DNA of 64,000 nt, taken from positions 1 through 64,000 of the forward strand of contig UCEY01000004.1 in assembly GCA_900471605.1 (NCBI GenBank). The letters run 5' to 3'. A program made the position numbers and the translations under genes. Positions within the stretch are counted from its first letter, which is position 1. Each line of letters opens with the position of its first letter. Of this stretch, positions 29,774-50,190 are shown piece after piece. A model generated the notes under the pieces. It was given only the letters and a program-made list of their open reading frames with translations, ran no database searches and was not told the DNA's origin. This DNA is from Hyphomicrobiales bacterium. GTDB taxonomy: Bacteria; Pseudomonadota; Alphaproteobacteria; Rhizobiales; Rhizobiaceae.

Positions 29774-31525
29774 TCAGGGTTTGCGGATTTCGCGCGTCAC
29801 CGAATAGGTGCCGCCGTCGTGCCAGGTGCTCCAGCCCGCATCGCCGCCCACGACGAAGATATCGAAGTTTTCCGGTGCACCGTATAGGGAGATTTCGGTC
29901 TCCGGATGCTCCCGCATCCATTGCAGATGCGGATGTACGACCTCGAAGAGTTCCGGTGTCTTGTTGAGCATCGCTTTGCGGAAGCTGAGGCGCGAGCCGC
30001 GATAGAGGCGCTCGCGGAGATCTGCAAGGGACCAGCCTGCCCGCGCAAAGACGGCGGCATGGTCGGGGCAAAGCAGCAGAAGGTTGTCCGGATCGCCACG
30101 CCAGACTGCCGGTACGCCGTCTGCCCCCTTGTGGGTCGTCAGCCAGGCGGCCCCCATGGCGTTGGCCGCCGAGGACATGGCCGAGCAGAACACTTCGGCT
30201 AGCATTTCCGGATCGTGGTTCTGGAAGTCGTAGAGGCAGGTCTGCGAGAAGGGTGAGTTCACTGTGACAGTGGAGCTTTCTCGTCCGTAGCCCTTGACGA
30301 CGCGGTAGGGGTCCCAGGGATTGCGCGCCTCATTCTCTGCGATGCAATAGGAGAACTTCATGGTCGTGCCGTGCGTGTCCATGTCGCTGACGCCCGGATA
30401 GGACAGGCCGATATTCATCATGATCAGCCGGGCTGCGCGGCCGATCGCGACATTCGCCGCGTTCTGCGAGCCGGGGCCGATAGGTGCGATGCCGTAGTTG
30501 AGGCCGAGTTCCTCGACGATCGGACCGGAGACCAGGATAACCGGCGCCTGCGGGCCGGTGGACATGTTGACGCCGCGCCACCCGGCGCGGAAATCCAGGA
30601 AGCAATCGACCATGGCGACGAGCAGCGGCATCATCTTCGGCGTGCAGCCAGCCATGACGGCATTGGCGGCGATCTTCTCGATGGTGGCGATGCCGAAACC
30701 CGGTTCAAGATAGCCGACGACGTGATCACCCGGAAGGCCGGAGCCCTCGATCATCGCCTCGACCTTGGAGCGGACCGGCGGCACGAGCGGAAAGCCGTCG
30801 CTCCAGCCCGAGCGGACGAAGGCGGCATTCATCGTGTCGAAAGCGTCCATCAGGTCGCGCCCGGCATAGGTCAGCGACGGCTGCTCGACACTGTCGCGGC
30901 TGATGCGTTTGAAGTCGAGCGTGGCGGAGGGCGGCGTGGTGGTGAAGCCGCGGATGATCGTGTCCATCGCGGCATCGACCATGGCATGGATCCGGTCGGG
31001 GCTATTGTTGGTGAAGCATTCGGGCACTTCGGCGATAACGAGATCCGGCACGCCCCAGACATTGGCGCTCCAGTGGGCGTCCTCGTGAAACTGGCTGGCC
31101 GTCCAGGCGATGGCCGGTGTGCCGCGCTGCTCGACGCCGCACATGTCGTGGATCAGCCACGAGGTACAGCTGCCGCAGTCCGCCGAGGTACCGACGACCG
31201 CGTCGCACTCCGCCGCCATCGCATCGAGCTGTGCGTCGGAAGCGCGCCGCAGGACGCCACCCATGGCACCGAGGTAATCGCGGAACTGGATGTCCGGATA
31301 GAGCCGCTTCAGGTTGGTCTTGGTACGCTCCAGCGCCTGATTGCCCTGCTGCTTGCCGTTCCAGAAGAAACCGACGGTCTTGCCGGCCAGCCTGTCCAGC
31401 CGCGGCGCCGCCGGATAACGAACCGCCTGAGCGGTCTCCACCTTCTGGCGGGCGATCGGGTTGACGATCTCCAGGATTGCGGCCTTCGTGGCATCGTCGC
31501 CTGCATCTCTGACAGTCACGTTCAT
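29774..31525 (-). CDS. UGSC-family protein fused to large domain of unknown function
   Basis: A 583-residue two-domain protein. The N-terminal domain (about 1-215) belongs to the UGSC family, named for a Sec-Gly-Ser-Cys motif; here residues 117-120 are CGSC, encoded with an ordinary TGC codon. The C-terminal domain (about 226-583) has GWSDGFPLVPP, IEKIAANAVMAG and AIGRAARLIMMN and matches the separate protein at 48606-49709. Start ATG 31525 has GAGGAGGAG 6 nt upstream. It leads an operon with a 2-hydroxyacid dehydrogenase and a NifU-like protein, and is divergent from a LysR gene. A redox role for the Cys pair is suggested by the motif; the reaction is unknown. Confidence 0.85.
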   Translation of the reverse strand: MNVTVRDAGDDATKAAILEIVNPIARQKVETAQAVRYPAAPRLDRLAGKTVGFFWNGKQQGNQALERTKTNLKRLYPDIQFRDYLGAMGGVLRRASDAQLDAMAAECDAVVGTSADCGSCTSWLIHDMCGVEQRGTPAIAWTASQFHEDAHWSANVWGVPDLVIAEVPECFTNNSPDRIHAMVDAAMDTIIRGFTTTPPSATLDFKRISRDSVEQPSLTYAGRDLMDAFDTMNAAFVRSGWSDGFPLVPPVRSKVEAMIEGSGLPGDHVVGYLEPGFGIATIEKIAANAVMAGCTPKMMPLLVAMVDCFLDFRAGWRGVNMSTGPQAPVILVSGPIVEELGLNYGIAPIGPGSQNAANVAIGRAARLIMMNIGLSYPGVSDMDTHGTTMKFSYCIAENEARNPWDPYRVVKGYGRESSTVTVNSPFSQTCLYDFQNHDPEMLAEVFCSAMSSAANAMGAAWLTTHKGADGVPAVWRGDPDNLLLLCPDHAAVFARAGWSLADLRERLYRGSRLSFRKAMLNKTPELFEVVHPHLQWMREHPETEISLYGAPENFDIFVVGGDAGWSTWHDGGTYSVTREIRKP

Positions 31526-31627
31526 GATGATCTCCTCCTCAAGAGAGCTGCATGATCTCGGGCTGCTAGTGAAAACGCAAATGTTAGTTTCTTGTCATTT
31601 TGATCGCAGAAAGTTATCATCTTTGGC

Positions 31628-32518
31628 ATGGAACTTCGCCATCTCCGCTATTTCGTCGCCGCCGCCGAGGCGGAGAGCATCCGCAAGGCTTCAGCGCGGC
31701 TCAACGTCGTGCAGCCTGCGCTCTCGCGACAGATCGCGGCGCTGGAGGAGGAACTCGGCTTCGCGCTGTTCTCGCGGGCAAAGCGCCGCATTCGTCTGAC
31801 GCCGGCGGGAGAAGCCTATCTCGCCGATGCAAGATGGATTTTGCGGGAGGTGGAACTGGCCGGCGAACGGGCGGCGCGGATCGCCAGCGGCAAGGCGGGC
31901 ATGGTCCGGCTCGGCTTCCACGAGACGGCCGGGCGCTCGCGAGTAGTCTCCGACACATTTCGCGACTTCCGCCGGGCTTGGCCCGATATCGAGCTGCGGC
32001 CGCTGCAGATGACCTCGCAGGCCCAGCTCGGCGCAATCGACCGCGGCGACCTGGACGCCGGTTTCGTCTATCTGCCGGAGAAGCTGCCGTCAGGATTTTC
32101 AAGCCTGCCGGTCGGTGAGCACCGGATCTGGCTCGCGATGAACGAGGGACACAGGCTGGTGGCACAGGAGCATATCCGGGTCGCCGACCTGCTGGGCGAG
32201 GACTTTGTCGGCCTCCTGCGAACGGTCAACCCGGTCTATCACGATGCCGTCGCGGCTGCCTGCAAGGCAGCCGGGCTTCAACCGCGAATCGTGCAGGAAA
32301 CACAAGGGGAAGCGACGACGATGAACCTCGTCGGCGTCGGCCTGGGCCTCGCTCTGGCGATCTCGGCCGACGGTGCGAGCTGGACGCGGGGTGTCGTCAT
32401 CCGCCCGGTCGAGGACCTGTCGCTCGTCATGTCGCTGGGGCTGGTCTGGAAGGACGGCGTTTCCGGGCCGACGCTCCGGCTGATCGATACGGTGCGCGCC
32501 TTGCTCAACCCTGTGTGA
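31628..32518 (+). CDS. LysR-type regulator divergent from fused UGSC gene
   Basis: A 296-residue LysR-type protein with an N-terminal helix-turn-helix (MELRHLRYFVAAAE, QPALSRQIAALEEEL) and a normal inducer domain. It diverges from the fused UGSC gene across 102 bp, the classic LysR arrangement, so it probably controls that operon. The ribosome site is weak. Its 3' end overlaps the convergent CoA-transferase gene by 14 bp. Confidence 0.9.
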   Translation: MELRHLRYFVAAAEAESIRKASARLNVVQPALSRQIAALEEELGFALFSRAKRRIRLTPAGEAYLADARWILREVELAGERAARIASGKAGMVRLGFHETAGRSRVVSDTFRDFRRAWPDIELRPLQMTSQAQLGAIDRGDLDAGFVYLPEKLPSGFSSLPVGEHRIWLAMNEGHRLVAQEHIRVADLLGEDFVGLLRTVNPVYHDAVAAACKAAGLQPRIVQETQGEATTMNLVGVGLGLALAISADGASWTRGVVIRPVEDLSLVMSLGLVWKDGVSGPTLRLIDTVRALLNPV

Positions 32519-33593
32519 GGCTTCCAAAAATCGCTTCGTTCGACTGCCCGACCGTCGGTGCAGGCGCACGGGCGTCACGGCGAAGCGACGGAGCGAGCGG
32601 CAGCGGCAATGTCAGCGAGCCATCGGCCGCCGGGGCGAAGCCGCGGTCGCGGGCAAGCGTTCCGGTGATCGCTTCCTCTGGCGTACGCACCACGGCGCAG
32701 CAGACTTCCTGCCCATCGAAAACCGCCGTCCATTCGGTGGAGGTCCGGCGCGCGATGCGTTCCGCGACGGCCTCGATCACCGCCGGCCAGTCTTCGCTGG
32801 AGGCGAGATCGGCTGGCAGCGCGATCAGGCGGCAGAACGTCTCCCAGAACTTCGGCTCGGCGCAGGCGACGGCAAGATGGCGGCCGTCGGCGGTGGGATA
32901 GACGCGGTAGCGCGGCGACGCGCCCGAGGCCGCGTGGCCGTTCGGCGCAGGCCATGTGCCTTTTTCCATCCGTTCCGCCAGCGCCCAGGAGGCGAAGACC
33001 AGAAGCCCGTCGAACATCGCCACTTCAATGCGCTCGCCCTCCCCTGTGCGCTGACGCTTGAGCAGTGCCATCAGCAGGTTGACGAGAAGCGGGTAGGTGC
33101 CGCCGCCGACATCGGCGACGAGCGCCCAGGGCACGACCGGCGCTCCGTCGGCGCCGGTCGTCAGGCCGAGCAGGCCGGCTTCCGCCGCATAGGTGAGATC
33201 GTGGCCCGGCACCGAGGCATAAGCACCGTTCGAACCGTAGCCGTTGATCGAGCAGTATATGACATCCGGGCGGATTGCCTTCACCGCTTCGTAGCCGAGC
33301 CCGAGGCGGTTCATCGTGCCGGGCCGGAACTGCTCGACAAGGATATCGGCCTTCTCGATCAGCGGCCGCAGCCTTTCAAGCGCGGCGGGGTCCTTCAGGT
33401 CGAGGGCGATACTGTCCTTGCCGGCATTAAGCAGGTCGAACTCGGCCTGGCCAAACTGGCGCATCATGTCGCCGCCGCCCGGCCTTTCCACCTTGATGAC
33501 GCGCGCGCCGGCCTCCGACAGGAAAAGCGTCGCCAGCGGGCCGGGCAGAAGCGTGGAGAAGTCGAGGACCGTGATACCGTCGAGTGGAAGCAT
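32505..33593 (-). CDS. Family III CoA-transferase / acyl-CoA racemase-like
   Basis: A 362-residue CaiB/BaiF-family protein close in pattern to alpha-methylacyl-CoA racemases (LLPGPLATLFLSEAGARVIKVERP). GHDLTYAAEAGLLG carries the conserved Asp; the racemase-type residues His and Asp are both present in that segment. So it may be a racemase rather than a transferase. It starts 3 bp after the SMP-30 gene stop and has no ribosome site of its own, which points to translational coupling. Confidence 0.85.
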   Translation of the reverse strand: MLPLDGITVLDFSTLLPGPLATLFLSEAGARVIKVERPGGGDMMRQFGQAEFDLLNAGKDSIALDLKDPAALERLRPLIEKADILVEQFRPGTMNRLGLGYEAVKAIRPDVIYCSINGYGSNGAYASVPGHDLTYAAEAGLLGLTTGADGAPVVPWALVADVGGGTYPLLVNLLMALLKRQRTGEGERIEVAMFDGLLVFASWALAERMEKGTWPAPNGHAASGASPRYRVYPTADGRHLAVACAEPKFWETFCRLIALPADLASSEDWPAVIEAVAERIARRTSTEWTAVFDGQEVCCAVVRTPEEAITGTLARDRGFAPAADGSLTLPLPLAPSLRRDARAPAPTVGQSNEAIFGSLTQG

Positions 33594-33596
33594 GGA

Positions 33597-34526
33597 TCAA
33601 TATACCAAGGGCAGGCCGGGGCGAGCCCACGGCAGGGAAATGACGTCGCCCACACCGGCGCGGGTGACGAAGGCCGTCTTCATGTCAGGTCCGCCGAAGC
33701 AGATGTTGGTGGTATGGGTATCGCCCGTATCCACCTGCTCGACAAGCGCGCCGTTCGGCGAGAAGACCGAGATCGCGCCCCGCGCCAGCGTCGCGACGCA
33801 GATATTGCCGGAAGCCTCGACGGCGAGCGAATCGAAGAGTTGATAGCCAGGCAGGCCGGCAACGAGCCGGCCGTTGATTCCGGGATAGTGACCGCAGAAA
33901 GGCCGAACCCTCCCCGGCCCCTCGATGTCGAAGGCCCAGAGCCGCCCGGTCAGCGTTTCCGCGACATACAGGGTGCGCCCGTCCGGCGAAAGGCCGACGC
34001 CATTCGGCCGGTCCATCGGCTGCACGACGGAGCGGATCTCGCTTCCGTCCGGCCGCGCCCAGTAGACGCAGCCTATATCGGCATCCGACAGGCGCCGCTT
34101 GCCGAGGTCGGTAAAGTAAAAGCCGCCTTCCGCGTCGAACACGATGTCGTTCGGCCCCTTCAGCGCCGTTTCGCCGCAGCCGCGATAGAGGGTCGACAGA
34201 ATGCCTGTCGCAGGATCGAAAACGTCGATCGAGCCACCGGAATAATCTTCGGCCTGGCTGACGGGAACCATGATGCCGTGAACATCAGCCCAGCGGAAGC
34301 CGCCGTTGTTGCAGATGTAGACTCGGCCATCCGGACCCAACGCGGCACCGTTAGGACCGCCTGGCACCTTCGCGGCCATGCTCACCGTACCGTCCGGAGC
34401 GATCCGCGTCAGTGTCTGACGGCGGATCTCCACCAGCAGCAGCGAACCGTCCGGCATGGCGACAGGCCCTTCCGGAAATTGCAGACCGGCTGCAACCACG
34501 TGAAGACCGTCGATAGTTTCGCTCAT
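33597..34526 (-). CDS. SMP-30/gluconolactonase-family lactonase
   Basis: This 309-residue beta-propeller protein belongs to the SMP-30/gluconolactonase/LRE family, metal-dependent lactone hydrolases. Likely metal ligands are the Glu in FPEGP, the Asn in DRPNGVGLS and the Asp in QLFDSLAV. ATG 34526 has GGGAGGAG 4 nt upstream. It forms a two-gene operon with the CoA-transferase or racemase, and could open a lactone that then enters CoA metabolism. Confidence 0.88.
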   Translation of the reverse strand: MSETIDGLHVVAAGLQFPEGPVAMPDGSLLLVEIRRQTLTRIAPDGTVSMAAKVPGGPNGAALGPDGRVYICNNGGFRWADVHGIMVPVSQAEDYSGGSIDVFDPATGILSTLYRGCGETALKGPNDIVFDAEGGFYFTDLGKRRLSDADIGCVYWARPDGSEIRSVVQPMDRPNGVGLSPDGRTLYVAETLTGRLWAFDIEGPGRVRPFCGHYPGINGRLVAGLPGYQLFDSLAVEASGNICVATLARGAISVFSPNGALVEQVDTGDTHTTNICFGGPDMKTAFVTRAGVGDVISLPWARPGLPLVY

Positions 34527-34740
34527 CTGCTCCTCCCGCATCTCGCTGATCTCCGACCGTCGGCGCGGCCCATGGCGAGGCTCACAAGCGGCTTTTCTCT
34601 GAGCATACATGTGATGCCTGCGGCGACGGCGGCGGCGGGACATTCAACAGCTACGTGTTGTTGTGGCCGCAGAGCGTTGTCTGCATTTGCAAGTGGCCGG
34701 GAGAACACCAATGTGGGGTGGAATCCAGGGAGAGATGCAG

Positions 34741-35454
34741 ATGTCGGATACAGCGGAAACGGAAAATGCGAAGAAGAAGCGTGCGCTTCGCCCACGCGAT
34801 GCGGCGACGCTCATCGTATACCGGCGTGACGCCGATGCGGTCCGGCTGCTGATGGGCCGCAGATCGATGAGTCATGTCTTCATGCCCGGCGCGCTGGTCT
34901 TTCCCGGAGGTCGGATCGAAAATCAGGACCGCTTCGTGACCGTCACCGATGAGCTCGATCCGGCGGTCGAGAACTTGCTTTGCAGGCGTTCAAGGACTAC
35001 TTCCGCGCGGGCCCGAGCGCTGGCACTGGCGGCAATTCGCGAGACTTTCGAGGAAACCGGCTACCTGATCGGCGTGGCGCGCGAGGCGACGCGCAAGCCG
35101 CCGGGCGCCTCCTGGCAGAACTTCTTCAGCCACGGTGTCATTCCGTCACTTTCGGGCCTGAGGCTCCTGACGCGTGCCATAACACCGCCCACGCAGCCGC
35201 GTCGTTTCGACGCCCGCTTTTTCGTCGTCGAGGCCGAGGCCCTCGTCAAGCAGGTGGACGTTCCCGACGAAGAGCTGGAGAGCCCCGCCTGGGTAACCTT
35301 CGATGAGGCCCGCGCCTTCAAGAAGCTGCCCATGGTGACGCGCGTCGTGTTGGACGAACTGGAGCCGAAGCTGGCGAAAGGTCCGCTGGCAGCCGATGCG
35401 CCGGCGGTGCTGCGCCGAATGGTTCAGGGCAAGTTCCAGAGCGAGCCGCTCTAA
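34741..35454 (+). CDS. NUDIX hydrolase with long insertion (CoA-pyrophosphatase-like)
   Basis: A 237-residue NUDIX protein. The Nudix box is split: FPGGRIE comes first, then about 45 extra residues, then RETFEETGYL with the metal-binding glutamates. A split box of this type is known from NUDT19-like CoA-diphosphatases. ATG 34741 is used; an ATG at 34735 is an alternative. It is divergent from the lactonase and upstream of a beta-oxidation-type operon. Hydrolysis of CoA or acyl-CoA would suit the neighbourhood, but this is inferred. Confidence 0.82.
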   Translation: MSDTAETENAKKKRALRPRDAATLIVYRRDADAVRLLMGRRSMSHVFMPGALVFPGGRIENQDRFVTVTDELDPAVENLLCRRSRTTSARARALALAAIRETFEETGYLIGVAREATRKPPGASWQNFFSHGVIPSLSGLRLLTRAITPPTQPRRFDARFFVVEAEALVKQVDVPDEELESPAWVTFDEARAFKKLPMVTRVVLDELEPKLAKGPLAADAPAVLRRMVQGKFQSEPL

Positions 35455-35594
35455 CCTGTCCCGCACCCCTGCAGGATCGCGCGCGGTCATCCGCATACCT
35501 GCCTTCTATTCGCATATATGTGCCGGTTCAGCGAAGAGACGGGACACTGGCGCTCGTTCTGCGGAAAATGCCGCACGTTGTTTGGAGGATCACA

Positions 35595-36353
35595 ATGGCT
35601 TTGCGACTTGAACGAAGCGGCAATGTCGCTGTCGCCGTTTTCGACTGGCCGGAGCAACGCAATGCGCTCGGCCCCGACGAATGCCGAGAAATCGCCGCGG
35701 GGCTTCGTGAACTGGCGCGGGACGGCTCGATCGCCGGCGTCGTGGTCACCGGCGAGGGCCCGGCTTTTTGCGCCGGCGGAAACCTGAAGGGCGCCGTCAG
35801 CCGGACCGGCATGTCCGAGGAAGAGCGCCGTCAGATCGTCTATACGGCTTATCAGGATGTCATCCGGGCTCTGGTCGAGATGCCGGTCGTCACCGTCGCG
35901 GCGGTCGACGGACCTGCGATCGGCCTGGGCTTCGACATCGCGCTCGCCTGCGACTGCCGTTTCCTGGGACCCGAAGGCTGGTTCATGCAGGGCTGGGCCC
36001 GTGTCGGCTTCGCCCCCGGCACCGGAGGCGAATGGCTGTTGCGGCTGAAGGCTCCGCATCTGCTTTGGAAGCTCCTCGAAGAGCAGCCGCGCATCGGCCC
36101 GGCGATGGCCGAAGCGATGAATCTTGGCGAATCTTCCGGCGAAGTCCGTGCCCGTGATCGTGCGATCGCGCGGGTCGAGAAGTTGGCCGCGCTTTCGCGC
36201 GACACGATCGAGGCTTATGTCCGCCTCTCGCGGATGGATCTGCGCGAGGGGCTGGAAGCACATCTTGCCGCCGCCGTCGGCGAACAGATCAAGCTGTTGG
36301 CCAGCCCCCTGGTGAAGGCGCGCGTGGAGCACGTTCTGAAGGGTGGCAAATGA
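35595..36353 (+). CDS. Crotonase-fold (enoyl-CoA hydratase/isomerase family) protein
   Basis: This 252-residue protein has the crotonase fold: FCAGGNLKG for the oxyanion hole and VDGPAIGLGFDIALACD. The two catalytic glutamates of true hydratases are not in place: the first position is Asp (GFDIAL) and the second region reads WARVGFAPGTGG. ATG 35595 has GGAGG 6 nt upstream. It overlaps the next gene, an acyl-CoA dehydrogenase, by 4 bp and begins a five-gene plus-strand operon. The reaction may differ from simple hydration. Confidence 0.87.
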   Translation: MALRLERSGNVAVAVFDWPEQRNALGPDECREIAAGLRELARDGSIAGVVVTGEGPAFCAGGNLKGAVSRTGMSEEERRQIVYTAYQDVIRALVEMPVVTVAAVDGPAIGLGFDIALACDCRFLGPEGWFMQGWARVGFAPGTGGEWLLRLKAPHLLWKLLEEQPRIGPAMAEAMNLGESSGEVRARDRAIARVEKLAALSRDTIEAYVRLSRMDLREGLEAHLAAAVGEQIKLLASPLVKARVEHVLKGGK

Positions 36354-37534
36354 GCGAGACGGGTTTCGGCTTCGAACTGCCGCCACATCTCGTGACGCTG
36401 CGCGATACCGTGGAGGACTTCGTCCGCGACGAGATCGTTCCGGCCGAGCGGAGCATTCCACCTGAGGCCCGCGGCATGCCGTCCGACCTGATCGCGCGAC
36501 TGCAGGACAAGGCGAGAGCTATCGGTCTGTGGTGCCTCGACGCACCGGAAGAATATGGCGGTGGCGGCCTCTCCTCCTTGGAATTCGTCATCGCCGCCGA
36601 GGCCGGAAGCAAGCACCGTTTCTGCTTTCCACAGCCGGGCGGCGGCGCCTTTGGCCACCCGCCCCCGATCGTCCTCTACTCCGGCACCGCCGAGCAGATC
36701 GAACGCTACGTCGTCCCCTCAATCCGCAACGGCTGGTACGGCTTCACCGCGATCGCCGAGGCGACCGGCGGCAGCGATCCGGCAAGGGCGATCCGCACCA
36801 CGGCGGCAAGGGACGGTGACAGCTACGTCATTAACGGCACGAAGATGTGGATCACCCACGCGGATTATGCACGCTACGGCGTCGTGTATGCGCGGACGGA
36901 GAACGGCATCAGCGCCTTCGTGGTCGATGCCGGTACGCCCGGCATGGAAGTCGTGCGTAGCCTGCCGGTGCTGCGCGACCACTGGCCGACCGAAGTAAGG
37001 TTCGACAATTGCCGTATCCCGGCCGGAAACCTGATCGGCGCGGAAGGGAAAGGGCTGGAACTTGCCGGCAAGTGGCTTCAGCGGGCGCGGTTGCTCTACG
37101 CGGCCCGCGCGGTCGGCATTGCCGAGGAGTCGCTGCGGATCGCCGCAGACTGGGCGCGGGAGCGCGAGACTTTCGGTGCGGCGCTGGCGACGCGGCAGGC
37201 GATCCAGTTCGCGGTGGCCGAAAGCCGGATCGACGTCAACGCGGCGCGCTGGCTGGTCTGGGAGGCTGCGTGGAAGCACGACCGGGACGAGGACATCCGC
37301 CTGCAGGCCACGATCGCCAAGGCGGGTGCCGTGGATGCAGCCAGCCGCACGGTCGACCGGATGATCCAGATCATGGGCGCGATGGGGCTCTCGCGTGAGC
37401 TGCCGCTGGAAGCATGGTACCGCGACCTGCGCACGGCGAAGATCCTCGAAGGATCGAGCGAGATGCTGCGCATATTCATCGCCCGGGCAGAGCTCGGGCC
37501 AGCCGCTTCGGCCCGCAATCCGAAACAAACTTGA
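36350..37534 (+). CDS. Acyl-CoA dehydrogenase
   Basis: A 394-residue FAD enzyme with an N-terminal helical domain (APEEYGGGGLS), beta domain (YVINGTKMWITHADYA) and C-terminal domain. The C-terminal motif ILEGSSEM carries the usual catalytic glutamate, so it looks active and of the medium-chain type. It overlaps the preceding crotonase gene by 4 bp and is followed by a Bug-type binding protein. Electrons would go to ETF and then to the ETF-ubiquinone oxidoreductase at 51172-52833. Confidence 0.92.
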   Translation: MSETGFGFELPPHLVTLRDTVEDFVRDEIVPAERSIPPEARGMPSDLIARLQDKARAIGLWCLDAPEEYGGGGLSSLEFVIAAEAGSKHRFCFPQPGGGAFGHPPPIVLYSGTAEQIERYVVPSIRNGWYGFTAIAEATGGSDPARAIRTTAARDGDSYVINGTKMWITHADYARYGVVYARTENGISAFVVDAGTPGMEVVRSLPVLRDHWPTEVRFDNCRIPAGNLIGAEGKGLELAGKWLQRARLLYAARAVGIAEESLRIAADWARERETFGAALATRQAIQFAVAESRIDVNAARWLVWEAAWKHDRDEDIRLQATIAKAGAVDAASRTVDRMIQIMGAMGLSRELPLEAWYRDLRTAKILEGSSEMLRIFIARAELGPAASARNPKQT

Positions 37535-37547
37535 AGGAATGACATCG

Positions 37548-38525
37548 ATGAAGAAACGGAATCTCGTCGCGGTCCTGACCGCCGCATTCCTCGCCCCGAT
37601 GACGGGCGCCCTGCCGGCCCATGCCGCGAACTATCCGACCAAGCCGGTCACTGTGATCGTACCGTTCGATCCGGGCGGTCCGGTGGAAATCATGGGGCGC
37701 ATCTTCGTCGACAAGCTTTCGCATCGCCTCGGACAGCAGTTCCTGATCGAAACGAAGCCCGGCGCCTCTACCGCCATCGGCACGGAACAAGTCGTGAGGG
37801 CGAAGAATGACGGCTATACGCTGCTCTATACTTCAGTCTCCTCGCTGATTACCCTCGAGTTGACAAAGAAAGGGCAGCTTTCCTTCGATGCAGCCAGGGA
37901 TCTGGCACCCGTCGCCACGACCCATACTGGCGCCTACGTGCTCTACGTCAACCCGTCGCTCGGCTTCAAGACGGCGAAGCAATTCATCGATGCCGCCAAG
38001 GCCAAGCCCGGGGAATACAGCTACAGTTCCACCGGCATCGGTGCACATACCTATTTCACCAGCGAGCTCTTCAAGAACATGACGGGCACGGACATCCTCC
38101 ACATTCCCTACAAGGGCACCGGGCCGGCGACCCAGGCGGTCGTCGCCAACGAAGTCTCGATGATCTTCGGGTCGCCCGTGCTTCATCAGCAGTATGGCAA
38201 GACCGGCCAGCTGACCGCGCTTGGGGTCACCTCCCCGAAGCCCATCAGCCAGTTGCCCGACATCCCGTCACTGGGCGATACGGTCCCCGGCTTCCAGTCG
38301 ATCTATGCCTTCACCTTCTTCGCGCCGAAGGACACGCCGAAAGAAATCGTCGACAGACTGAACGCCGAGATCAACCAGATCCTCGAATTGCCGGACGTGA
38401 AGCAGAAGATCCTCGCCGTCGGCGAGCCGGGCGGCTCGTCGCCCGAGCAGATGAAGGCCGACATGGCGACCGAACTCCGCACGCTTGAGCAATTGGTCGA
38501 AAAAGTGGGCCTCAAGCTTGAATAG
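37548..38525 (+). CDS. Bug-family (TctC-like) substrate-binding protein
   Basis: A 325-residue periplasmic binding protein. ATG 37548 follows GAAGGAA at a good distance. The first 30 residues form a basic-hydrophobic signal peptide ending in PAHAANY. The Bug pattern follows: YPTKPVTVIVPFDPGGPVE, then NDGYTLLY and IPYKGTGPATQAV. It sits inside an operon between acyl-CoA dehydrogenase and crotonase genes without membrane partners. That position suggests it binds the substrate of this pathway. Confidence 0.9.
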   Translation: MKKRNLVAVLTAAFLAPMTGALPAHAANYPTKPVTVIVPFDPGGPVEIMGRIFVDKLSHRLGQQFLIETKPGASTAIGTEQVVRAKNDGYTLLYTSVSSLITLELTKKGQLSFDAARDLAPVATTHTGAYVLYVNPSLGFKTAKQFIDAAKAKPGEYSYSSTGIGAHTYFTSELFKNMTGTDILHIPYKGTGPATQAVVANEVSMIFGSPVLHQQYGKTGQLTALGVTSPKPISQLPDIPSLGDTVPGFQSIYAFTFFAPKDTPKEIVDRLNAEINQILELPDVKQKILAVGEPGGSSPEQMKADMATELRTLEQLVEKVGLKLE

Positions 38526-40147: not shown

Positions 40148-40151
40148 CGCC

Positions 40152-43180: not shown

Positions 43181-43191
43181 CAGGATCAACC

Positions 43192-44343
43192 ATGGAACTG
43201 CAACTCAGCGACGAGCAGAAGCTCATCCTCGAAAGCGCCCAGCGTTACGCAACGGAGGAATATACCTTCGACAAGCGCCGCAAGCGCGTTGCCGAAGGCG
43301 TCACCATCGACCGCGCCGCCTGGAGCCAGTTGGCGGAACTCGGCTGGTTCGGCATAGGCGTGCCGGAAGCGGCCGGCGGCTTCGGCGCCTCGACCATCGA
43401 AAATACGCTGATCGCCGAAACGCTCGGCAAGGCGCAGGCGCTGGAACCCTACACGATGTGCGGCGTGTTCCCGGCGCGCCTCCTGACGGCGTTCCGCCAG
43501 AACGAGGCTGCGCAGGCTGCGCTCGAAAACCTGATTTCCGGCGAGGCGCTGGTTGCCGTCGCCTGGTCCGAAGCCATTTCCCGCGGCGACCCGCTCGCCA
43601 TCGAGACCAAAGCAAGTAGGACGGCCGACGGCTGGGTCCTTTCAGGGCGCAAGACGCTGGTGGTCGGCGGCGACGCCGCGGACCTCTTCCTGGTGACGGC
43701 GCTCGAAGACGGCAAAAACGGGACCGAAGGCCTGCGTCTCTTCCTGATCGGTAAGTCCGTCGCAGGACTTTCGCCCGAAGGCGACAAGCTGATCGACTGG
43801 ACTTCGGGCGTCGATCTGGTCCTCCAAGACGTGAAGGTCGATCAAAGCACGCTTCTCGCCTCGGGCGAGGATGCTCTGGCGGTGCTTTCCTCCAGTCTCG
43901 ACGAAACCGCCGTCGTCCTCTGTGCCGAGGCCGTCGGGGCCATGGAGGGTGCGATCGAGGTGACGTCGCAATATATCCGCGACCGCCACCAGTACGGCGT
44001 CTCCCTGTCGAGCTTCCAGGTGCTGCAGCACCGGATGGCCGATATGGTTATGGACATGGTGCTCGCCCGCTCTGCGGTCATGTGCGCACTGCAGGCCCTC
44101 GCCAATGCCGGGCCTGCCGAGCGCAGCGCCAAGGTCGCCGGCTGCAAGGCCTTCGTGACACGCATCGGCAAATGGGCAACCTCTCAAGGGATCCAGTTGC
44201 ACGGCGGCTACGGCATCACCGAGGAATACAGCGTCGGGCAGTTCTACAAGCGGCTGCTGGTCATCGACAGTTTCCTCGGCCGGCAGGACTTCCAGCTCGA
44301 GCGTTATACGAAATGGATGATCTCCGGGCTGTCCGCCACATGA
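43192..44343 (+). CDS. Acyl-CoA dehydrogenase, small subunit of PimC/PimD-like pair
   Basis: A 383-residue, more diverged dehydrogenase of the PimD type. It keeps the N-terminal helical part (PEAAGGFGAS), a weak beta domain (GWVLSGRKTLVVGGDAADLF) and the C-terminal segment RDRHQYGVSLSSFQ followed by LHGGYGITEEYSVG. It follows the large subunit after 11 bp and overlaps the MaoC gene by 4 bp, so the two dehydrogenases are probably made in equal amounts. Only one of the two may bind FAD, as in known heteromers. Confidence 0.87.
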   Translation: MELQLSDEQKLILESAQRYATEEYTFDKRRKRVAEGVTIDRAAWSQLAELGWFGIGVPEAAGGFGASTIENTLIAETLGKAQALEPYTMCGVFPARLLTAFRQNEAAQAALENLISGEALVAVAWSEAISRGDPLAIETKASRTADGWVLSGRKTLVVGGDAADLFLVTALEDGKNGTEGLRLFLIGKSVAGLSPEGDKLIDWTSGVDLVLQDVKVDQSTLLASGEDALAVLSSSLDETAVVLCAEAVGAMEGAIEVTSQYIRDRHQYGVSLSSFQVLQHRMADMVMDMVLARSAVMCALQALANAGPAERSAKVAGCKAFVTRIGKWATSQGIQLHGGYGITEEYSVGQFYKRLLVIDSFLGRQDFQLERYTKWMISGLSAT

Positions 44344-44762
44344 GCGCCGACGCGCCAACCTTCGAACCCGGCGAAACCCTGACGCCGCTTTTCACGGGCC
44401 AGATATTGCGACATCACCTGGTCGAATGGTGCGCCGCGGAGAACGACTACTACAATATCCACTACGACGACCGCGCCGCCCGCGAGATGGGTCTCGCAGG
44501 CGCACCGATCCAGGGTACCTACAAATTCGCCCTGTTCGGTCAGATGCTCGACCGGTGGCTTGCGGGCCGCGGCACAGTCGTGCGGATATCGGCCAGCTAC
44601 CGGCAAGCGGATTTCGAAGGTGCGGCGCTGGAAATCCGTTGTGAGGTGACGGAACGACAGGGTTCCGTTGTGACTGTCTCGCTTGTTGTCGTCAATGAGG
44701 CCGGCGAGCGCACGACGACCGGGCAGGCCATCATCAGGCTTTTCGAAGAGCCGATCCGATAA
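44340..44762 (+). CDS. MaoC-like single-hotdog dehydratase
   Basis: A 140-residue hotdog protein of the MaoC/R-hydratase family. DYYNIHYDDRAAREMGLAG holds the family's Asp...His pattern for hydration. It starts within the stop codon of the preceding dehydrogenase gene (ATGA). It would hydrate the enoyl-CoA made by the heteromeric dehydrogenase. The length is typical for a single-domain member. Confidence 0.85.
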   Translation: MSADAPTFEPGETLTPLFTGQILRHHLVEWCAAENDYYNIHYDDRAAREMGLAGAPIQGTYKFALFGQMLDRWLAGRGTVVRISASYRQADFEGAALEIRCEVTERQGSVVTVSLVVVNEAGERTTTGQAIIRLFEEPIR

Positions 44763-44781
44763 ATTACAGCTGGAGAAAATC

Positions 44782-45210
44782 GTGTCCGAATCGGCCGTAT
44801 CCGTCGAAGAATTGCAAACGATGGCGGACCGTTGTCCGTTCAATGCCTGGCTCGGCCTGCGCATCCTGTCGGTGGGTCACGGGGAACTGGAGGCTGCCGC
44901 AGTCTGGCGGGACGAAATGATGGGCGCGCCTGAGCGCAAGCTGATCCACGGCGGCGTGCTCGCCTCGCTGGTCGATGCCGGCGGCGATTATGCCATCGCA
45001 ACGGCGCTCGGCCACGCTTCGCCCACGGTGGATCTCCGGACCGACTATCACCGCATCGCCGCTTATGGTGACCTCAGGATATCAGCGAAGGTGGTCAAGC
45101 TGGGCAAGACCGTGACGACGGCGGATGCTTCGATTTTCGACAAGGACGGGCGGCTCGTGGCAAGCGGGCGCGGCGTGTACCTCACCTCGCAATCGACACG
45201 TGAGGGCTAA
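44782..45210 (+). CDS. PaaI-family thioesterase
   Basis: A 142-residue hotdog thioesterase of the PaaI type. The motif LIHGGVLASLVDAGGDYA holds the HGG turn and the helix with the catalytic Asp. VDLRTDYHRIA and SGRGVYL are typical later segments. GTG 44782 was taken as start, with GGAG 7 nt upstream; the frame upstream overlaps the MaoC gene. It closes the four-gene dehydrogenase operon and could release CoA from stalled intermediates. Confidence 0.87.
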   Translation: MSESAVSVEELQTMADRCPFNAWLGLRILSVGHGELEAAAVWRDEMMGAPERKLIHGGVLASLVDAGGDYAIATALGHASPTVDLRTDYHRIAAYGDLRISAKVVKLGKTVTTADASIFDKDGRLVASGRGVYLTSQSTREG

Positions 45211-45231
45211 CGACGCCTCTCCTTCAATGCC

Positions 45232-46002
45232 TTATTGTGCCGTGAATCCCCCGTCGATCGGCAGCGCGATCCCATGGATGTTTGAAGCCGCCGGCGAGCA
45301 GAGGAAGAGAATGGGCGCGGCCGCTTCCGCGAGGCTGCCCATGCGGCCTGTCGACGGATAGAGTGCTGCCATTCTGGCATCCCAGGCGTCGGGCTCGAAG
45401 GTCGCCTTAAAGGCCAGCGCCATATCGCTTTCATGCGCGGCCGGGCAGATGCAGTTGATGCGCACCCCCCTGCGGCCATAATCGATGGCCGCAGATTTCG
45501 TCATGCCGATGACAGCATGCTTTGCGCCCGTATATTCGAAATTGTTCGGCGCACCCCGCAATCCGGCCTTGGACGACAAGTTCACGATCGAGCCGCCGCC
45601 GGCTTCGATGATATGAGGAATGGCATATTTCATGCCGAGGAAGACACCTCGTGCATTGACTACAAAGACCGCATCGAACTCTTCATTCGAGACGTCGCAG
45701 AGAGGCTTGCCAACGGTTCCCAATCCCGCATTGTTGATCAGGATGTGCAATGAACCGAAGCGTTCGACGGCGGTCTTCATCAGTCGTTCGACATCGTCCG
45801 CCTTCGCCATGTCGGCCTCGACCGCCAGAGCCTCTCCACCTTCGGCCGAAATGGCCGCCACCGTCTCTTCCAGACGGGCGATCGTGCGGCCGGCAAGGAC
45901 GACCATTGCTCCGCAGCGGGCGAACTGCAACGCCGTCTCGCGCCCGATCCCGCTGCCACCGCCGGTCACAACGACCGTCTTGCCTTCAAATATGCCCCCC
46001 AT
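45232..46002 (-). CDS. Short-chain dehydrogenase/reductase
   Basis: A 256-residue SDR with TGGGSGIG near residue 14, NNAG near residue 93 and YTGAK as the catalytic YxxxK. The end (ALPIDGGFTAQ) is standard. ATG 46002 lies 13 bp after the CoA-transferase stop, and the ribosome site is weak, so translation may be coupled. It is the last gene of the split UGSC operon. A 3-hydroxyacyl-CoA or alcohol oxidation is possible, but not shown by the sequence. Confidence 0.87.
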   Translation of the reverse strand: MGGIFEGKTVVVTGGGSGIGRETALQFARCGAMVVLAGRTIARLEETVAAISAEGGEALAVEADMAKADDVERLMKTAVERFGSLHILINNAGLGTVGKPLCDVSNEEFDAVFVVNARGVFLGMKYAIPHIIEAGGGSIVNLSSKAGLRGAPNNFEYTGAKHAVIGMTKSAAIDYGRRGVRINCICPAAHESDMALAFKATFEPDAWDARMAALYPSTGRMGSLAEAAAPILFLCSPAASNIHGIALPIDGGFTAQ

Positions 46003-46015
46003 ATCGGCATCATCC

Positions 46016-47119
46016 CTATTGTGCGAACGCAGCCCGCCCCGGAAGCGGCCCCGCAGAGCCGAGTATCTCGGCATTGTGCTCGCCAAGCGCCGCGCCGGTC
46101 GAGCGGATTGAACCGGGGCTTTCGGACATTTTTGGCTGCGGTGCCGGCAGTACGGCCGGGCGGCCGTTCACCTCGGTGCGCAGCAGACTGCCGCGGGCGA
46201 TGACCTGCGGATCAGCCAGCATGGCGTCTATATCGTTGACCGGGGCGACGGGCAGCCGCTTCGCGACGAGAATCTCGAGAACGTCCGCCTGGCTGTGGCG
46301 CGCCACCCACGCAGCAACCGCCGCATCGGGATCTGTGCCGGCTTCGGCCCCGGCCAGTTGAGCCATTTCCGCGGCGTGGCGCGGCGTGCTTGCGGAAATC
46401 ACCACATGCCCGCCGTCCGCCGTGCGATAGGCGTTGCGGATGCCGCCGCCAAGGCGGCCGCCTTTGCGTTGCGGCGAATTGCCCGGCGACCAGTCCGCGC
46501 AAGCACCCGAGATCGCCATCAGGATGGGCTCGAACAGGGAGACATCGATCTCCTGGCCGGACCCGCCGCGCATGTCGCGCCAATAGAGCGCCGCGACCGT
46601 ACCCATGGCCGCATTCATTGCTCCGATGGCATCTCCCAGGGCGACCGAGGACAGCATCGGTACATCGTCCGGCCGCCCGGTGAGCCCGGTCAGACCGCCG
46701 AAACCTTCGCCGATCGTGCCCGAACCCGGCCGTCCGGCATAGGGTCCAGTCTGGCCGAAGCAGGAAACGCTGACCATGACGAGGCGCGGATTGCGCGTTG
46801 ACATGGCCTTCCAGTCGATACCGCGGCGTTCAAGCACCTCGCGTGGATAGTTCTGCACCACCACGTCGGCCGTCTCCACGAGCTTCAGCAGGTCCTCGCA
46901 TCCAGTGGGCGTACGCAGGTCGAGCGTCAAGGACTTCTTGTTGCGTCCGACGAGGCCCCACATGGCGGTGTTGCGGAAACTGTCGCCCTCGGGAGGTTCG
47001 ACCTTGATGACTTCCGCTCCGAAGTCCCCGAGTAGCGTTGCAGCGAAGGGCGCGGCATAGAGAGAGGCGATGTCGAGCACGCGCAGGCCGGCCAGCGGCA
47101 AAGGTTTTTCGTGCGTCAT
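46016..47119 (-). CDS. Family III CoA-transferase-like protein lacking the usual Asp
   Basis: A 367-residue CaiB/BaiF-family protein with the N-terminal Rossmann-like part (LRVLDIASLYAAPFAATLLGDFGAEVIKVEPP). Where active members carry Asp in an AYD-type segment, this one reads GSGTIGEGFGGLTG, with Gly at that place and a Glu four residues later. Some family members share this pattern, so it may use another residue or do a different reaction. AAGGA lies 6 nt before ATG 47119. It sits 8 bp after the CoA ligase and 13 bp before the SDR. Confidence 0.84.
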   Translation of the reverse strand: MTHEKPLPLAGLRVLDIASLYAAPFAATLLGDFGAEVIKVEPPEGDSFRNTAMWGLVGRNKKSLTLDLRTPTGCEDLLKLVETADVVVQNYPREVLERRGIDWKAMSTRNPRLVMVSVSCFGQTGPYAGRPGSGTIGEGFGGLTGLTGRPDDVPMLSSVALGDAIGAMNAAMGTVAALYWRDMRGGSGQEIDVSLFEPILMAISGACADWSPGNSPQRKGGRLGGGIRNAYRTADGGHVVISASTPRHAAEMAQLAGAEAGTDPDAAVAAWVARHSQADVLEILVAKRLPVAPVNDIDAMLADPQVIARGSLLRTEVNGRPAVLPAPQPKMSESPGSIRSTGAALGEHNAEILGSAGPLPGRAAFAQ

Positions 47120-47127
47120 AGGTTTCC

Positions 47128-48609
47128 TTAAACGCGGCGCTGACGACCGGCCCAGTAAGGCTCCCGCAGCGCTCTCTTCAGTATCTTGCCATTTTCAAGC
47201 CTGGGCAGTTCGGTCTGGAAGACGATCCGCTTCGGCACCTTGTAGGATGCGAGACGCTCCCGCAGATAGGCGCGCAGGCCATCCTCTGTCAGGTCGCCGA
47301 TTATCGCCAGATGCGCAGCAACCGATTCGCCGAATTCGGGATCCGGAATACCGAAGACGGCCGTATCCACCACGCATGGATGGGACAGGATCGCCGCCTC
47401 GATTTCGGCGGGATAGATATTGACGCCGCCGGAAATCACCATGTCCGCGACGCGGTCGCAGACATAGAGGTATCCGTCTTCGTCCAGCCAGCCGATGTCG
47501 CCGGAACCGATCATGCCGTCGCGACCGATCCGCTGACGGGCAGCGTCGTTGCCGTGATAGGTAAAATCCGGCGTTCCATGCATGACGGTATGGATCTCGC
47601 CGATCGTGCCGACCGGCATTATCTTGCCCTCACCGTCATAGATGCGGACCTCGCCGGTCGCGTAGGGCCGGCCGACGGATCCAGGCCTTTCCATCCACTC
47701 CGCGGAGTTGATCATGGTGACCGCCCCGGTCTCGGACGAACCGTAGCTTTCCCAGACGACCGGCCCGAACCATTCGATCATCGCCCGTTTGACGTCCTCG
47801 GCGCAGGGCGCACCACTATGGATCAGGAATTCAAGCGAGGACACGTCGTAGCGGGCGCGCACTTCCGCCGGCAGCCTCAGAAGCCGGACCATCATCGTCG
47901 GGACGAGATGCGTATGCGTGATCCGGTGCTCGGAAATCGCCGCAAGGAAAGCCTCGCCGTCGAAGCGGTCCATCACGAAAACCGAACCGCCGGCGCCGAA
48001 ATAGGTCATCGATACGGCGAGGCTAAAAAGATGGTATTGCGGGCCTGTGACCAGCGCCCGCGCCCCTGGGCGCGACGGATAGAGGAGGTTGAGCGCATGC
48101 CGCCGCGCGGCGATCTCGCTTTCCGATTTCGGCATGCGCCGCACACCCTTCGGATGTCCCGTGGTGCCGGAAGTGTAGATGATCGAGCTTTCCAGCCCGC
48201 TACCCTTGCGCTCGCACGTCACCGGCGTTGCCGCCAGTGCGTCGTACGAGAGACGGCCCGGCGTCTTGACATCAAGCGAGACCTGGATGACGCCATCGGC
48301 GATCTCGTCGCCGATGGCGGTGAGCAGCGCGTCCTCGCCGATAGTGACCTTGGCGTTGCAGTCCCTCAGGATATATCCCGCTTCCGCTGCGGTGAGATGC
48401 CAGTTCAGGGGCACAAGAAAGCCATCAAGTGACCGCATCGCGGTTTCCGCTTCGAAGAAGCTGAAACCATTGTGGGCGATCAGCGCGACCGCATCACCGC
48501 GACCGACGCCAAGGCCCGCAAGAGCCTCGGCAAGCGATGCCGCGCGGGCGCGGATTTCCGCCGCAGTCCGCTTCCTATCGCCTACGATGACGAAGGGCTC
48601 TTCGTTCAT
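47128..48609 (-). CDS. Acyl-CoA ligase (AMP-forming) in split UGSC operon
   Basis: A 493-residue ANL-family ligase with the P-loop YTSGTTGHPKGV, the GSGDIGWLDEDGYLYVCDR hinge and the catalytic lysine in LENGKILKRAL. ATG 48609 was chosen because it overlaps the stop codon of the UGSC large-domain gene by 4 bp; ATG 48645 would add 12 residues. A much longer frame upstream is only a shadow of the neighbouring gene. Its place between the UGSC genes and a CoA-transferase ties UGSC chemistry to CoA thioesters. Confidence 0.9.
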   Translation of the reverse strand: MNEEPFVIVGDRKRTAAEIRARAASLAEALAGLGVGRGDAVALIAHNGFSFFEAETAMRSLDGFLVPLNWHLTAAEAGYILRDCNAKVTIGEDALLTAIGDEIADGVIQVSLDVKTPGRLSYDALAATPVTCERKGSGLESSIIYTSGTTGHPKGVRRMPKSESEIAARRHALNLLYPSRPGARALVTGPQYHLFSLAVSMTYFGAGGSVFVMDRFDGEAFLAAISEHRITHTHLVPTMMVRLLRLPAEVRARYDVSSLEFLIHSGAPCAEDVKRAMIEWFGPVVWESYGSSETGAVTMINSAEWMERPGSVGRPYATGEVRIYDGEGKIMPVGTIGEIHTVMHGTPDFTYHGNDAARQRIGRDGMIGSGDIGWLDEDGYLYVCDRVADMVISGGVNIYPAEIEAAILSHPCVVDTAVFGIPDPEFGESVAAHLAIIGDLTEDGLRAYLRERLASYKVPKRIVFQTELPRLENGKILKRALREPYWAGRQRRV

Positions 48610-49709
48610 GCAGGCATCCGCACTGGCTTGGTGGTTGTCAGACATGTCCCCCACGAGTGAAGCATGGCGCAATGCAGCCCGCCCATGCCGCCGGCAACCA
48701 TGACGAAGACTTCTTCCGGCTTCTGGATCAGATGTACCCGCCCGTCGGCGCGGAGGCGCCCGCAGCGGTCGATCGGCTCGCGATAGACCGGATCGAGGAA
48801 ATCGATCGGGATCGCCGCATAATCGAAGATCTTCTGCTGTACGTCCTCGATATTTGGAAACGCCTTGCCGATCACTTCGGCCCAGACCGGATTGATCGCC
48901 ACCAGCGTTTCCGACCACTGCGAAGATGGCAGGAAGCCGTTGGCGCCCGGATAAGCGAGCGACTTGCCGATCATCTGCAGGAAATGGTCGGCGGTGTTGC
49001 CGATCATGTCGCAGATATTGGCCGTGCCCATCGCACCGTAAGCGGTAACGGCATTGCCCTTGACGCCGAGCCGTTCGCCGAGCGGCGCCCAGGGAGACTT
49101 CTCCTCCCATTCGCCGAAGACGATGCCGGAAACACGGCCGGGCGTGCCGTAGGTACTCTGCGAGGTGACGTCGATCACCTGGCCCGCGACGTTGCGGATC
49201 AGGAGGCGCAACGCGCGACCGATAGCGGGCGCCGGTCCGGCGACGCCGCCAAGGCAACCGGTCGCAAAGGGAATCTTCAACTGGTGGCGGATCGGCCCGT
49301 TGACGATCAGCGCCGGTACGACGGAGCCGGTCGTCGCGTTCAGCGACTGCAGTTCGAATTTCGGCTCTGCCATCGCCTCGACGGCAGCAATCAGCAGCGG
49401 CATCGATTCCGCCGGCGCCCCGGCCATGACCGCATTGATGGCGATCTTCTCCACCGTGCACTCTGTGCGAAGCGGCAGCAGCGTTGCCACCACCTCGTCC
49501 GGAAAGCGGCCGCTCATCTTCAGGTGCATGCGCACCCGGCCCTCCGTCGGCGGGATCAACGGCAGGCCGTCACCCCAGCCCTGCTCCATGGCGAAGGCAG
49601 TGAATTTCTCCGCGTCGAGCTCGGCTTCATGCCGCTGGCTGGACAGCCAGTCGATCTCGCACCCCGAGGGTCCGCAGGAACGATCGATAGTGGTCTCTTG
49701 CAATGTCAT
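48606..49709 (-). CDS. UGSC-associated large protein of unknown function
   Basis: A 367-residue protein that matches the C-terminal domain of the fused UGSC protein at 29774-31525. Shared landmarks in order are GWGDGLPLIPP, VEKIAINAVMAG, a NGPI segment and AIGRALRLLIRN. No known catalytic motif is recognised and no membrane segment is clear. ATG 49709 has AGAAGG about 9 nt upstream and overlaps the UGSC small gene by 83 bp. It overlaps the CoA ligase by 4 bp. Its constant link to a UGSC partner suggests a complex. Confidence 0.8.
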   Translation of the reverse strand: MTLQETTIDRSCGPSGCEIDWLSSQRHEAELDAEKFTAFAMEQGWGDGLPLIPPTEGRVRMHLKMSGRFPDEVVATLLPLRTECTVEKIAINAVMAGAPAESMPLLIAAVEAMAEPKFELQSLNATTGSVVPALIVNGPIRHQLKIPFATGCLGGVAGPAPAIGRALRLLIRNVAGQVIDVTSQSTYGTPGRVSGIVFGEWEEKSPWAPLGERLGVKGNAVTAYGAMGTANICDMIGNTADHFLQMIGKSLAYPGANGFLPSSQWSETLVAINPVWAEVIGKAFPNIEDVQQKIFDYAAIPIDFLDPVYREPIDRCGRLRADGRVHLIQKPEEVFVMVAGGMGGLHCAMLHSWGTCLTTTKPVRMPA

Positions 49710-50190
49710 GAACTTCAGCCTTCTGCCGGATGTCGAGCGGATAAGGGAGGATGTGGAGGCGAAGGCCCGAACGGCCGCCGCGCCGCGACAGGTTGCCGGC
49801 CAGTTCCTCGAAATGATCAGTCGCGACCGCAACCGTCGGGATCGATTTCTTTGCGGCCCAGAGAGCGTCGTGAATGGTCCAGGACGTGCAGGAACCGCAA
49901 TTGGCAAGACCCACCACGGCTGCATCGAGCGTGTCGGTAAAAGCGTCGAGCTCCTCGATCACGTGGGCGCCCACCTCGCCGGTACGGCCGCGGGCACGCC
50001 AGAACTTCACCGTGGCGCCGTCGCGCTCCAGCATCTGGCCCCAGATCTCGGAAACCCAGTCCCAGGATCGCCAAAGCTCGTCGACACGGAAGCCGATTAC
50101 TTTTCCAGCCAGGCTTTCGAGATCCGGACCGGGATCGGAGATGTCGTCCGAGCGGTGGGATGTAGGATCGAGGATCAGGCCTCGGTTCAT
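49627..50190 (-). CDS. UGSC-family protein (Cys form)
   Basis: A 187-residue UGSC-family protein with CGSC at residues 98-101, followed by TSWTIHDAL, the same segment as in the fused protein at 29774-31525. The first motif cysteine is encoded by TGC, not TGA, so this is the cysteine form of a family known from selenoproteins. ATG 50190 has AAAGGAG 6 nt upstream. It leads the operon of the large domain, CoA ligase, CoA-transferase and SDR, just after a 20-bp palindrome. A thiol redox role is plausible but unproven. Confidence 0.83.
   Translation of the reverse strand: MNRGLILDPTSHRSDDISDPGPDLESLAGKVIGFRVDELWRSWDWVSEIWGQMLERDGATVKFWRARGRTGEVGAHVIEELDAFTDTLDAAVVGLANCGSCTSWTIHDALWAAKKSIPTVAVATDHFEELAGNLSRRGGRSGLRLHILPYPLDIRQKAEVHDIARDHYRSFLRTLGVRDRLAVQPAA

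Follow-up and report, generated by a model that had tools for sequence, protein, structure and literature searches.

Which reaction is carried out by a small protein that contains selenocysteine (Sec) in most organisms and that occurs, fused or split, together with one large protein? This question is raised by two loci in a stretch of 64,000 nucleotides from a Hyphomicrobiales bacterium of the family Rhizobiaceae (GenBank assembly GCA_900471605.1, contig UCEY01000004.1, positions 1 to 64,000), in the following called the window. At the first locus, a single gene (29774..31525, minus strand) encodes P0003, a protein of 583 residues in which a UGSC domain in its cysteine (Cys) form is fused to a large domain. 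At the second locus, the two parts are encoded separately by P0005, a stand-alone UGSC protein of 187 residues, likewise in its Cys form (49627..50190, minus strand), and P0006, a stand-alone large partner of 367 residues (48606..49709, minus strand). From sequence comparisons, we lean towards the view that such pairs form a two-part reductase of small carboxylic acids, which would be fed by thioredoxin and resemble GrdB, the substrate-specific B component of glycine reductase, and the PrdB system of D-proline reductase.

The UGSC domain of P0003 (30941..31468, minus strand, residues 20-195) and P0005 both match PF24696 (cut-off 25 bits), with E-values of 8.7e-31 (107.8 bits) and 3.5e-30 (105.8 bits), respectively. 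The equivalog cut-off of NF041046 (125 bits) is reached by neither of them (88.8 bits for P0003 and 67.1 bits for P0005). The large domain of P0003, identified by its BLASTP match to P0006 (29777..30850, minus strand, approximately residues 226-583), resembles this protein with 26% over 366 columns (E-value 2e-29), and the two UGSC domains resemble each other with 34% over 116 columns (E-value 3e-12). Therefore, the likeness is beyond chance. Both window copies retain all 20 invariant positions of the large domain in a 76-row alignment, in which both are included as rows. The invariant residues of the large partner include D47-G48-P50, E87 and G164-R165. The CGSC motif is located at 31166..31177 in P0003 (minus strand; Cys117, which corresponds to the Sec position, and Cys120) and at 49888..49899 in P0005 (minus strand; Cys98 and Cys101), and the genes of P0005 and P0006 share an overlap of 83 nucleotides. 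An earlier note, made from the letters of the DNA, had described the loci as fused and split versions of one two-domain pair. BLASTP and PF24696 agree with this, the order of UGSC followed by the large part is the same in the fusion and in the split genes, and the residue motifs named there are found in both copies. The coordinates given for the loci were confirmed, to which we add that all three genes lie on the minus strand. The assignment of UGSC to a family known from selenoprotein surveys is likewise borne out by the membership in PF24696 and by the literature (PMC2398784; this and all further articles are cited from the parts of them that were available).

Across genomes, the two parts are found together. 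In a survey of 289 genomes of the class, PF24696 was present in 28, and the large domain, searched with an alignment of 15 rows (A1), was present in the identical 28 and in no others. We also scanned 84,980 species genomes for the large domain and used the best 80 of at least 585 relatives, giving 79 distinct loci, here called the named loci, whose record titles cover Proteobacteria, Chloroflexi, Actinomycetota, Acidobacteria and others. A UGSC stretch is present in every one of them. In 72 loci the large gene is followed by the UGSC gene with a gap of at most 250 bp; the remaining ones show the reverse order (one), a position within 1.5 kb (one), divergent genes (two) or a distance of 1.8 to 7.4 kb (three). 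Three of the UGSC stretches run into a contig end (L067, L097 and L106) and one is interrupted by a TAG codon (L087). Similarly, a large domain lies within 1.5 kb in 28 of the 29 UGSC loci that were fetched from other genomes of the class, the exception being L022. The class genomes hold up to eight UGSC copies each. Over 116 collected pairs, the distances among UGSC domains and those among large domains are correlated with r 0.935, a value that still includes the history of the species (best of 1000 permutations: 0.172). Judged from their joint occurrence, the UGSC protein and the large protein belong together. The suggestion of the earlier note that the two parts act together would have suffered from genomes that hold one gene and never the other; the same 28 class genomes carry both. 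Further fused and split forms, which it had proposed to look for, were found as well: the 116 pairs comprise 98 with the large gene before the UGSC gene, 13 fusions, three with the UGSC gene first and two divergent pairs.

In a tree of these pairs, a branch with a support of 31 has all 13 fused rows on the same side, by which a single origin of the fusion is neither shown nor rejected. P0003 and a third copy from the same genome, described below, form long branches, and P0005 and P0006 group with a Cys form from another genome of the class (G246; 54% and 64% identity). The gene order around the window pair is not conserved in comparison with its nearest relative (L140). No close relative of P0003 was found in 398 genomes of the phylum; four other genomes contain matches of 33-36% over part of the length. 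Several Sec-containing fusions (L129-L136) precede a second, separate large gene, an arrangement which suggests a partner that consists of two unlike large chains. Split UGSC-large pairs were also observed on haloarchaeal plasmids (L208, L215), where the small gene is annotated as a UGSC family (seleno)protein.

The canonical UGSC motif is U-G-S-C-T-x-C, and of the 80 UGSC stretches in the named loci, 77 show UxxCxxC and three are partial pieces without the motif. Among the matches to UGSC in the class, 69 of 73 contain one in-frame TGA codon, which occupies the first motif position wherever the sequence was inspected. The four TGA-free matches are the three copies of the genome under study, all with a Cys codon at the Sec position, and one copy from G246. 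Reading through a TGA in the UGSC part was also seen in all 11 fused class loci fetched from outside the genus, and the fused relatives on plasmids include a Sec form in Acidovorax sp. T1 (UGSCTSW) and a Cys form in Variovorax boronicumulans. A selB gene above the cut-off was detected in 26 of the 28 UGSC-bearing genomes and in one of eight genomes without UGSC; the two UGSC-bearing genomes lacking it are G011, which is 77% complete, and the genome under study. In the named loci, selA-like and selB-like genes (14 of 79 each) are the commonest identified neighbours. By these counts, the window holds Cys versions of a usually selenium-dependent system in a genome without selB. In the Global Ocean Sampling data, UGSC ranks with the most abundant selenoproteins (255 sequences; PMC2398784). 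In Candidatus Blastococcus massiliensis, the TAG codon mentioned above stands exactly at the Sec place of UGSC (L087:9308-9310); UAG-encoded Sec in UGSC-motif proteins of this bacterial family has been published (PMC5330540).

The motif UxxCxxC has been described as that of GrdB in a review (PMC13188914). When 69 UGSC members were scanned against NCBIfam with E-values up to 10, the GrdB family TIGR01917 was matched by 43 of them (best E-value 8.7e-6), GrdF by 40, TIGR01918 by 20, GrdH by 13 and the PrdB family TIGR04483 by a single one with a weak E-value of 0.062, while unrelated families were each matched by at most four. For a direct comparison, we used a GrdB profile of four sequences (TSTUGTCTRCGA) which adjoin GrdE genes; they derive from nine regions of one phylum, with GrdE present in 6 of 148 genomes. 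The hhalign comparison of UGSC with these sequences gave a probability of 92.5, a P-value of 4.8e-7 (for a single comparison) and a score of 53.5, where 30 column shuffles reached at most 20.7. The alignment places Sec on Sec and continues through the PHP segment. On the strength of these profile comparisons, UGSC and the Sec domain at the C-terminus of GrdB are distant homologues. PF07355, the Pfam family of GrdB, GrdF and GrdH, gave no match in P0003, in P0005 or in the Pfam scan of the UGSC members; it was the NCBIfam scan that revealed the link to GrdB. PF07355 has matches in 19 of the 28 class genomes with UGSC and in 10 of 20 other genomes tested. Among 34 PF07355 loci that were fetched (L117-L128, L142-L163), 15 encode short UPxC selenoproteins, another orphan GrdB-like group in these bacteria, and UGSC aligns with these 15 with a probability of 87.2, a P-value of 3.9e-6 and a score of 44.6 (best of 30 shuffles 19.1, reversed 12.9).

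The likeness to GrdB, GrdF and GrdH, the selenoproteins B of glycine, sarcosine and betaine reductase (PF07355, TIGR01917, TIGR01918), comprises the homologous Sec domain, the UxxCxxC motif of most UGSC relatives, a two-part substrate component and, judged from the genes of relatives outside the window, a dedicated thioredoxin system. Clostridial grd operons include their own trxA and trxB genes (PMC10880999). However, UGSC is much shorter than GrdB and lacks its N-terminal part, the partner is not recognisably GrdE, UGSC is found beside genes of coenzyme A (CoA) and malonate catabolism, and the window copies use Cys. D-proline reductase also combines a small Sec protein, PrdB, with a larger partner, PrdA. 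The number of residues which follow the Sec or Cys is 90 in PrdB (242 residues, Sec at position 152; PMC3091704) and 89 after Cys98 in P0005, with a median of 79 and a range of 23-95 after the Sec in the named loci. In contrast to PrdA, no pyruvoyl cleavage site was identified in the large partner of UGSC. For FarB and FarE of monofluoroacetate dehalorespiration, an attack of a GrdB-type Sec on a substituted acetate has been proposed (PMC10838667); unlike the UGSC pair, these proteins are a GrdB/GrdE-related pair of anaerobes.

A putative source of electrons is built into many of the UGSC systems. In 75 of the 79 named loci, the large domain is preceded, without a break in the reading frame, by an N-terminal thioredoxin-like domain, as judged by a profile built from 17 of these loci, and a CxxC motif is present in 73 of the 75. 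Against Pfam, one of seven members of this domain passes the Redoxin and AhpC-TSA cut-offs and the rest give weak matches or none. One of the four exceptions, from Acidimicrobiaceae (L116, upstream of 7998), does contain the thioredoxin-like domain, but with a TGA codon at the Cys of the RPGCGS linker that connects it to the large domain; this is possibly a second Sec and would mark the linker Cys as redox-active.

In fused systems, a thioredoxin reductase is often encoded next door. The third copy in the genome under study is a fusion with the motif CSTC on another contig (C64) and belongs to an operon which is conserved in the genus and comprises malonyl-CoA decarboxylase, malonyl-CoA synthetase, the UGSC-large fusion and a thioredoxin-reductase-like protein (L141:6995-12570). 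The fusion stands behind the two malonyl-CoA genes, as it does in all 11 other carrier genomes of the genus, and is directly followed by the gene of a flavoprotein which contains CASCDG and resembles thioredoxin reductase. Such a reductase lies directly behind all 12 genus copies of this type that were fetched. This type is present in 11 of 56 other genomes of the genus and the two window loci in none of them. In Neorhizobium galegae VafX2, the annotation shows the same malonate genes and treats the fusion as two hypothetical proteins. A relative with 48% identity and with Sec was found in a genome of the same family (L194). Among the 11 other fused loci fetched, six contain a reductase within 5 kb, five of these within 214 bp of the fusion or of the second large gene. 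On plasmids, four of ten opened regions include a reductase, namely that of N. galegae and those of Roseovarius sp. THAF8 (trxB at 137 bp), V. boronicumulans (1.0 kb) and Variovorax sp. SRS16 (trxB at 1.9 kb).

The same thioredoxin parts could belong to a thiol-disulfide oxidoreductase or peroxidase. Here UGSC would act as the reductant of peroxides or of disulfides in proteins, and the large domain would serve as a scaffold or specificity domain. The UxxC motif, the thioredoxin-like domain and the reductase neighbours are all in line with such a function, a thioredoxin-like fold was suggested for UGSC in 2008 (PMC2398784), and a title on the peroxidase activity of GrdB appears in the reference list of PMC3091704. 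Still, we regard this explanation as unlikely. It does not fit the placement in the malonate operon, the number of copies per genome or the well conserved partner of about 360 residues. Moreover, UGSC is predicted to have an alternating alpha/beta structure with five strands in the order E-H-E-H-E-H-E-H-E-H (P0005, model m71dd00ed66a1; pLDDT 87, pTM 0.82), in which the motif sits between a strand (residues 90-96) and the next helix (residues 99-114). The structures matching this model are generic alpha/beta folds with Z up to 9.6. The order of elements of a thioredoxin fold is not seen in this model.

We therefore return to the thioredoxin-fed reductase. What the sequences show are the constant pairing, the Sec of most relatives, the homology to GrdB and the thioredoxin parts; the nucleophilic reductive cleavage, the division of labour between the two parts and acids as the substrates are inferred. 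The chemistry outlined here is drawn by analogy with the mechanism that has been proposed for PrdA and PrdB (PMC3091704). The large partner would be the main holder of the small carboxylic acid. The Sec of UGSC, or the Cys in the window copies, would act as the nucleophile and attack a carbon of the substrate, giving a selenoether or thioether. The second Cys of the UxxC or CxxC motif could then free the reduced product under formation of a selenide-sulfide or disulfide, and thioredoxin chemistry would reduce this bond and restore the pair. In canonical split systems, the reductant would be the thioredoxin-like domain with which the large partner begins, in many fused systems the thioredoxin reductase of the neighbouring gene, and for the two window loci presumably the general cellular thioredoxin.

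Several observations weigh against this reading. The window copies have neither the Sec nor the third Cys of the motif; they retain CxxC, with Trp where the third Cys would be. No scanned UGSC protein reaches the cut-off of any GrdB family. No similarity to GrdE (PF09338) was seen for the large partner (hhalign score 17.0 compared to a shuffle maximum of 27.1, with 10 GrdE rows of which nine are different), and hence the substrate-activating half of the proposed mechanism is left unexplained. Of the 11 fused loci mentioned above, five are without a reductase (a contig end truncates one of the five), 18 of 20 non-canonical split places picked from the class show no thioredoxin domain and no reductase within 5 kb, and the same holds for both window loci. 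Finally, two distantly related plasmid-borne fusions similar to P0003, from Vibrio europaeus (L209:6782-8467) and Sporomusa termitida (L212:6980-8704), have DMGTS in place of CGSCT and lack both Cys of the motif, so they are unable to use the proposed chemistry and, judged by this motif, must do something else. They weaken the case for a reductase and strengthen the alternative of an enzyme or binding pair without redox function.

According to this alternative, the large domain would itself be the catalytic part of a hydrolase, lyase or dehydratase, assisted by UGSC, and most branches would carry the Cys or Sec as an addition. Besides the two relatives that lack both motif Cys, which are found near genes for aconitase X and DUF126, it can draw on the predicted structure of the large partner (P0006, model m956e0f29f535; pLDDT 88, pTM 0.88). 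In Foldseek and VIA-align searches, this model resembled class I fumarate hydratase (E-value 2e-4, with TM scores of 0.22-0.29), cyclic amide hydrolases (E-value 0.04 and worse) and chorismate mutase (Z 4.8 over about 90 residues). These matches are too weak for a fold assignment, which we rejected for this reason. Sequence searches did not identify the large domain either: 15 large domains matched no Pfam family (E-values up to 1), and in the PDB the two single proteins found nothing up to an E-value of 1 and the profiles nothing better than 0.21. A function without redox chemistry leaves the Sec in 69 of 73 class matches and the thioredoxin parts unexplained, and we consider it improbable.

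The UGSC family and its fusion with the large domain were already known. Zhang and Gladyshev reported in 2008 a fusion named UGSC/Unknown_1, which has, as far as the text tells, the same kind of two parts (PMC2398784), so the fusion as such is not new. In contrast to that report, the window proteins carry Cys, and the thioredoxin domain, the reductase neighbour and the kinship with GrdB do not appear in the available part of its text. The remark of the earlier note that the reaction is undescribed agrees with the available parts of PMC2398784, PMC9312934, PMC13188914, PMC7539508 and PMC5330540, in which no function of UGSC is stated. In a literature search, whose coverage did not extend to the supplement of the 2008 paper or to most subscription journals, we found no paper that deals with the malonate operon, the neighbouring reductase, the thioredoxin domain of the partner or the kinship of UGSC and GrdB. 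Through this kinship, its constant partner, the thioredoxin parts and its place in a malonate operon, the orphan UGSC becomes an enzyme that can be put to the test, and to produce the Cys forms of the genome under study, an ordinary E. coli strain that has no selenium machinery should suffice. As a tentative and more far-reaching idea, which we doubt a little more than we trust it, aerobic bacteria and haloarchaea may possess, in the UGSC systems, a widespread second branch of GrdB/PrdB reductases, in which an altogether different subunit, perhaps free of pyruvoyl, would activate the substrate and the thioredoxin would be built in. Their reaction might be the reductive cleavage of bonds from carbon to nitrogen, oxygen, sulfur or halogen in carboxylic acids, for example in 2-substituted malonates, and might need no selenium in the Cys forms of Neorhizobium. 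A GrdB-like reductive step within aerobic catabolism would be unexpected.

The genes around the window copies bear on a further explanation, put forward in the earlier note, by which the pair is a CoA-linked redox enzyme; its substrate would then be an acyl-CoA. P0003 likely forms one operon with the gene of a D-2-hydroxyacid dehydrogenase (28795..29742, minus strand), which lies 31 nucleotides downstream; a divergent LysR-type regulator gene (31628..32518, plus strand) is located 102 nucleotides from the start of P0003. P0005 and P0006 belong to a run of minus-strand genes. Downstream of P0006, an AMP-binding acyl-CoA synthetase is encoded (47128..48555, start approximate), and a family III CoA-transferase (46016..47119) and an SDR oxidoreductase (45232..46086) are further neighbours of the pair. 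Upstream of P0005 are the genes for a xylose-isomerase-like TIM barrel (50258..51319), an ETF-ubiquinone oxidoreductase-like protein (51172..52833) and an old-yellow-enzyme-type flavin oxidoreductase (52954..54168), all on the minus strand. Genes for CoA-transferase, acyl-CoA synthetase, thiolase and acyl-CoA dehydrogenase surround the window copies, malonyl-CoA genes adjoin the copy on contig C64, and elsewhere acyl-CoA dehydrogenase (5 of 118) and thiolase (4 of 118) were found among the neighbours scanned. Thus, the CoA setting described in the earlier note stands in so far as CoA genes flank many copies. On the other hand, such genes are common throughout the window, and in the 79 named loci none is as recurrent as selA and selB; beyond these and thioredoxin reductase, no neighbour is frequent. 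GrdB-type enzymes use free acids. The redox part of the proposal is likely to hold, but nothing in the results connects a CoA ester with the active site; an acyl-CoA as the substrate seems unlikely to us, and the thioredoxin-fed reductase outlined above is better supported.

The plasmid relatives show other surroundings. In addition to the aconitase X and DUF126 genes near the fusions of V. europaeus and S. termitida, an isocitrate-lyase-like gene was found in Acidovorax, and RraA and CoA-transferase genes lie near the relative on a Halalkalicoccus plasmid. Together with the window, these contexts point to small, often multiply charged acids and to no single substrate.

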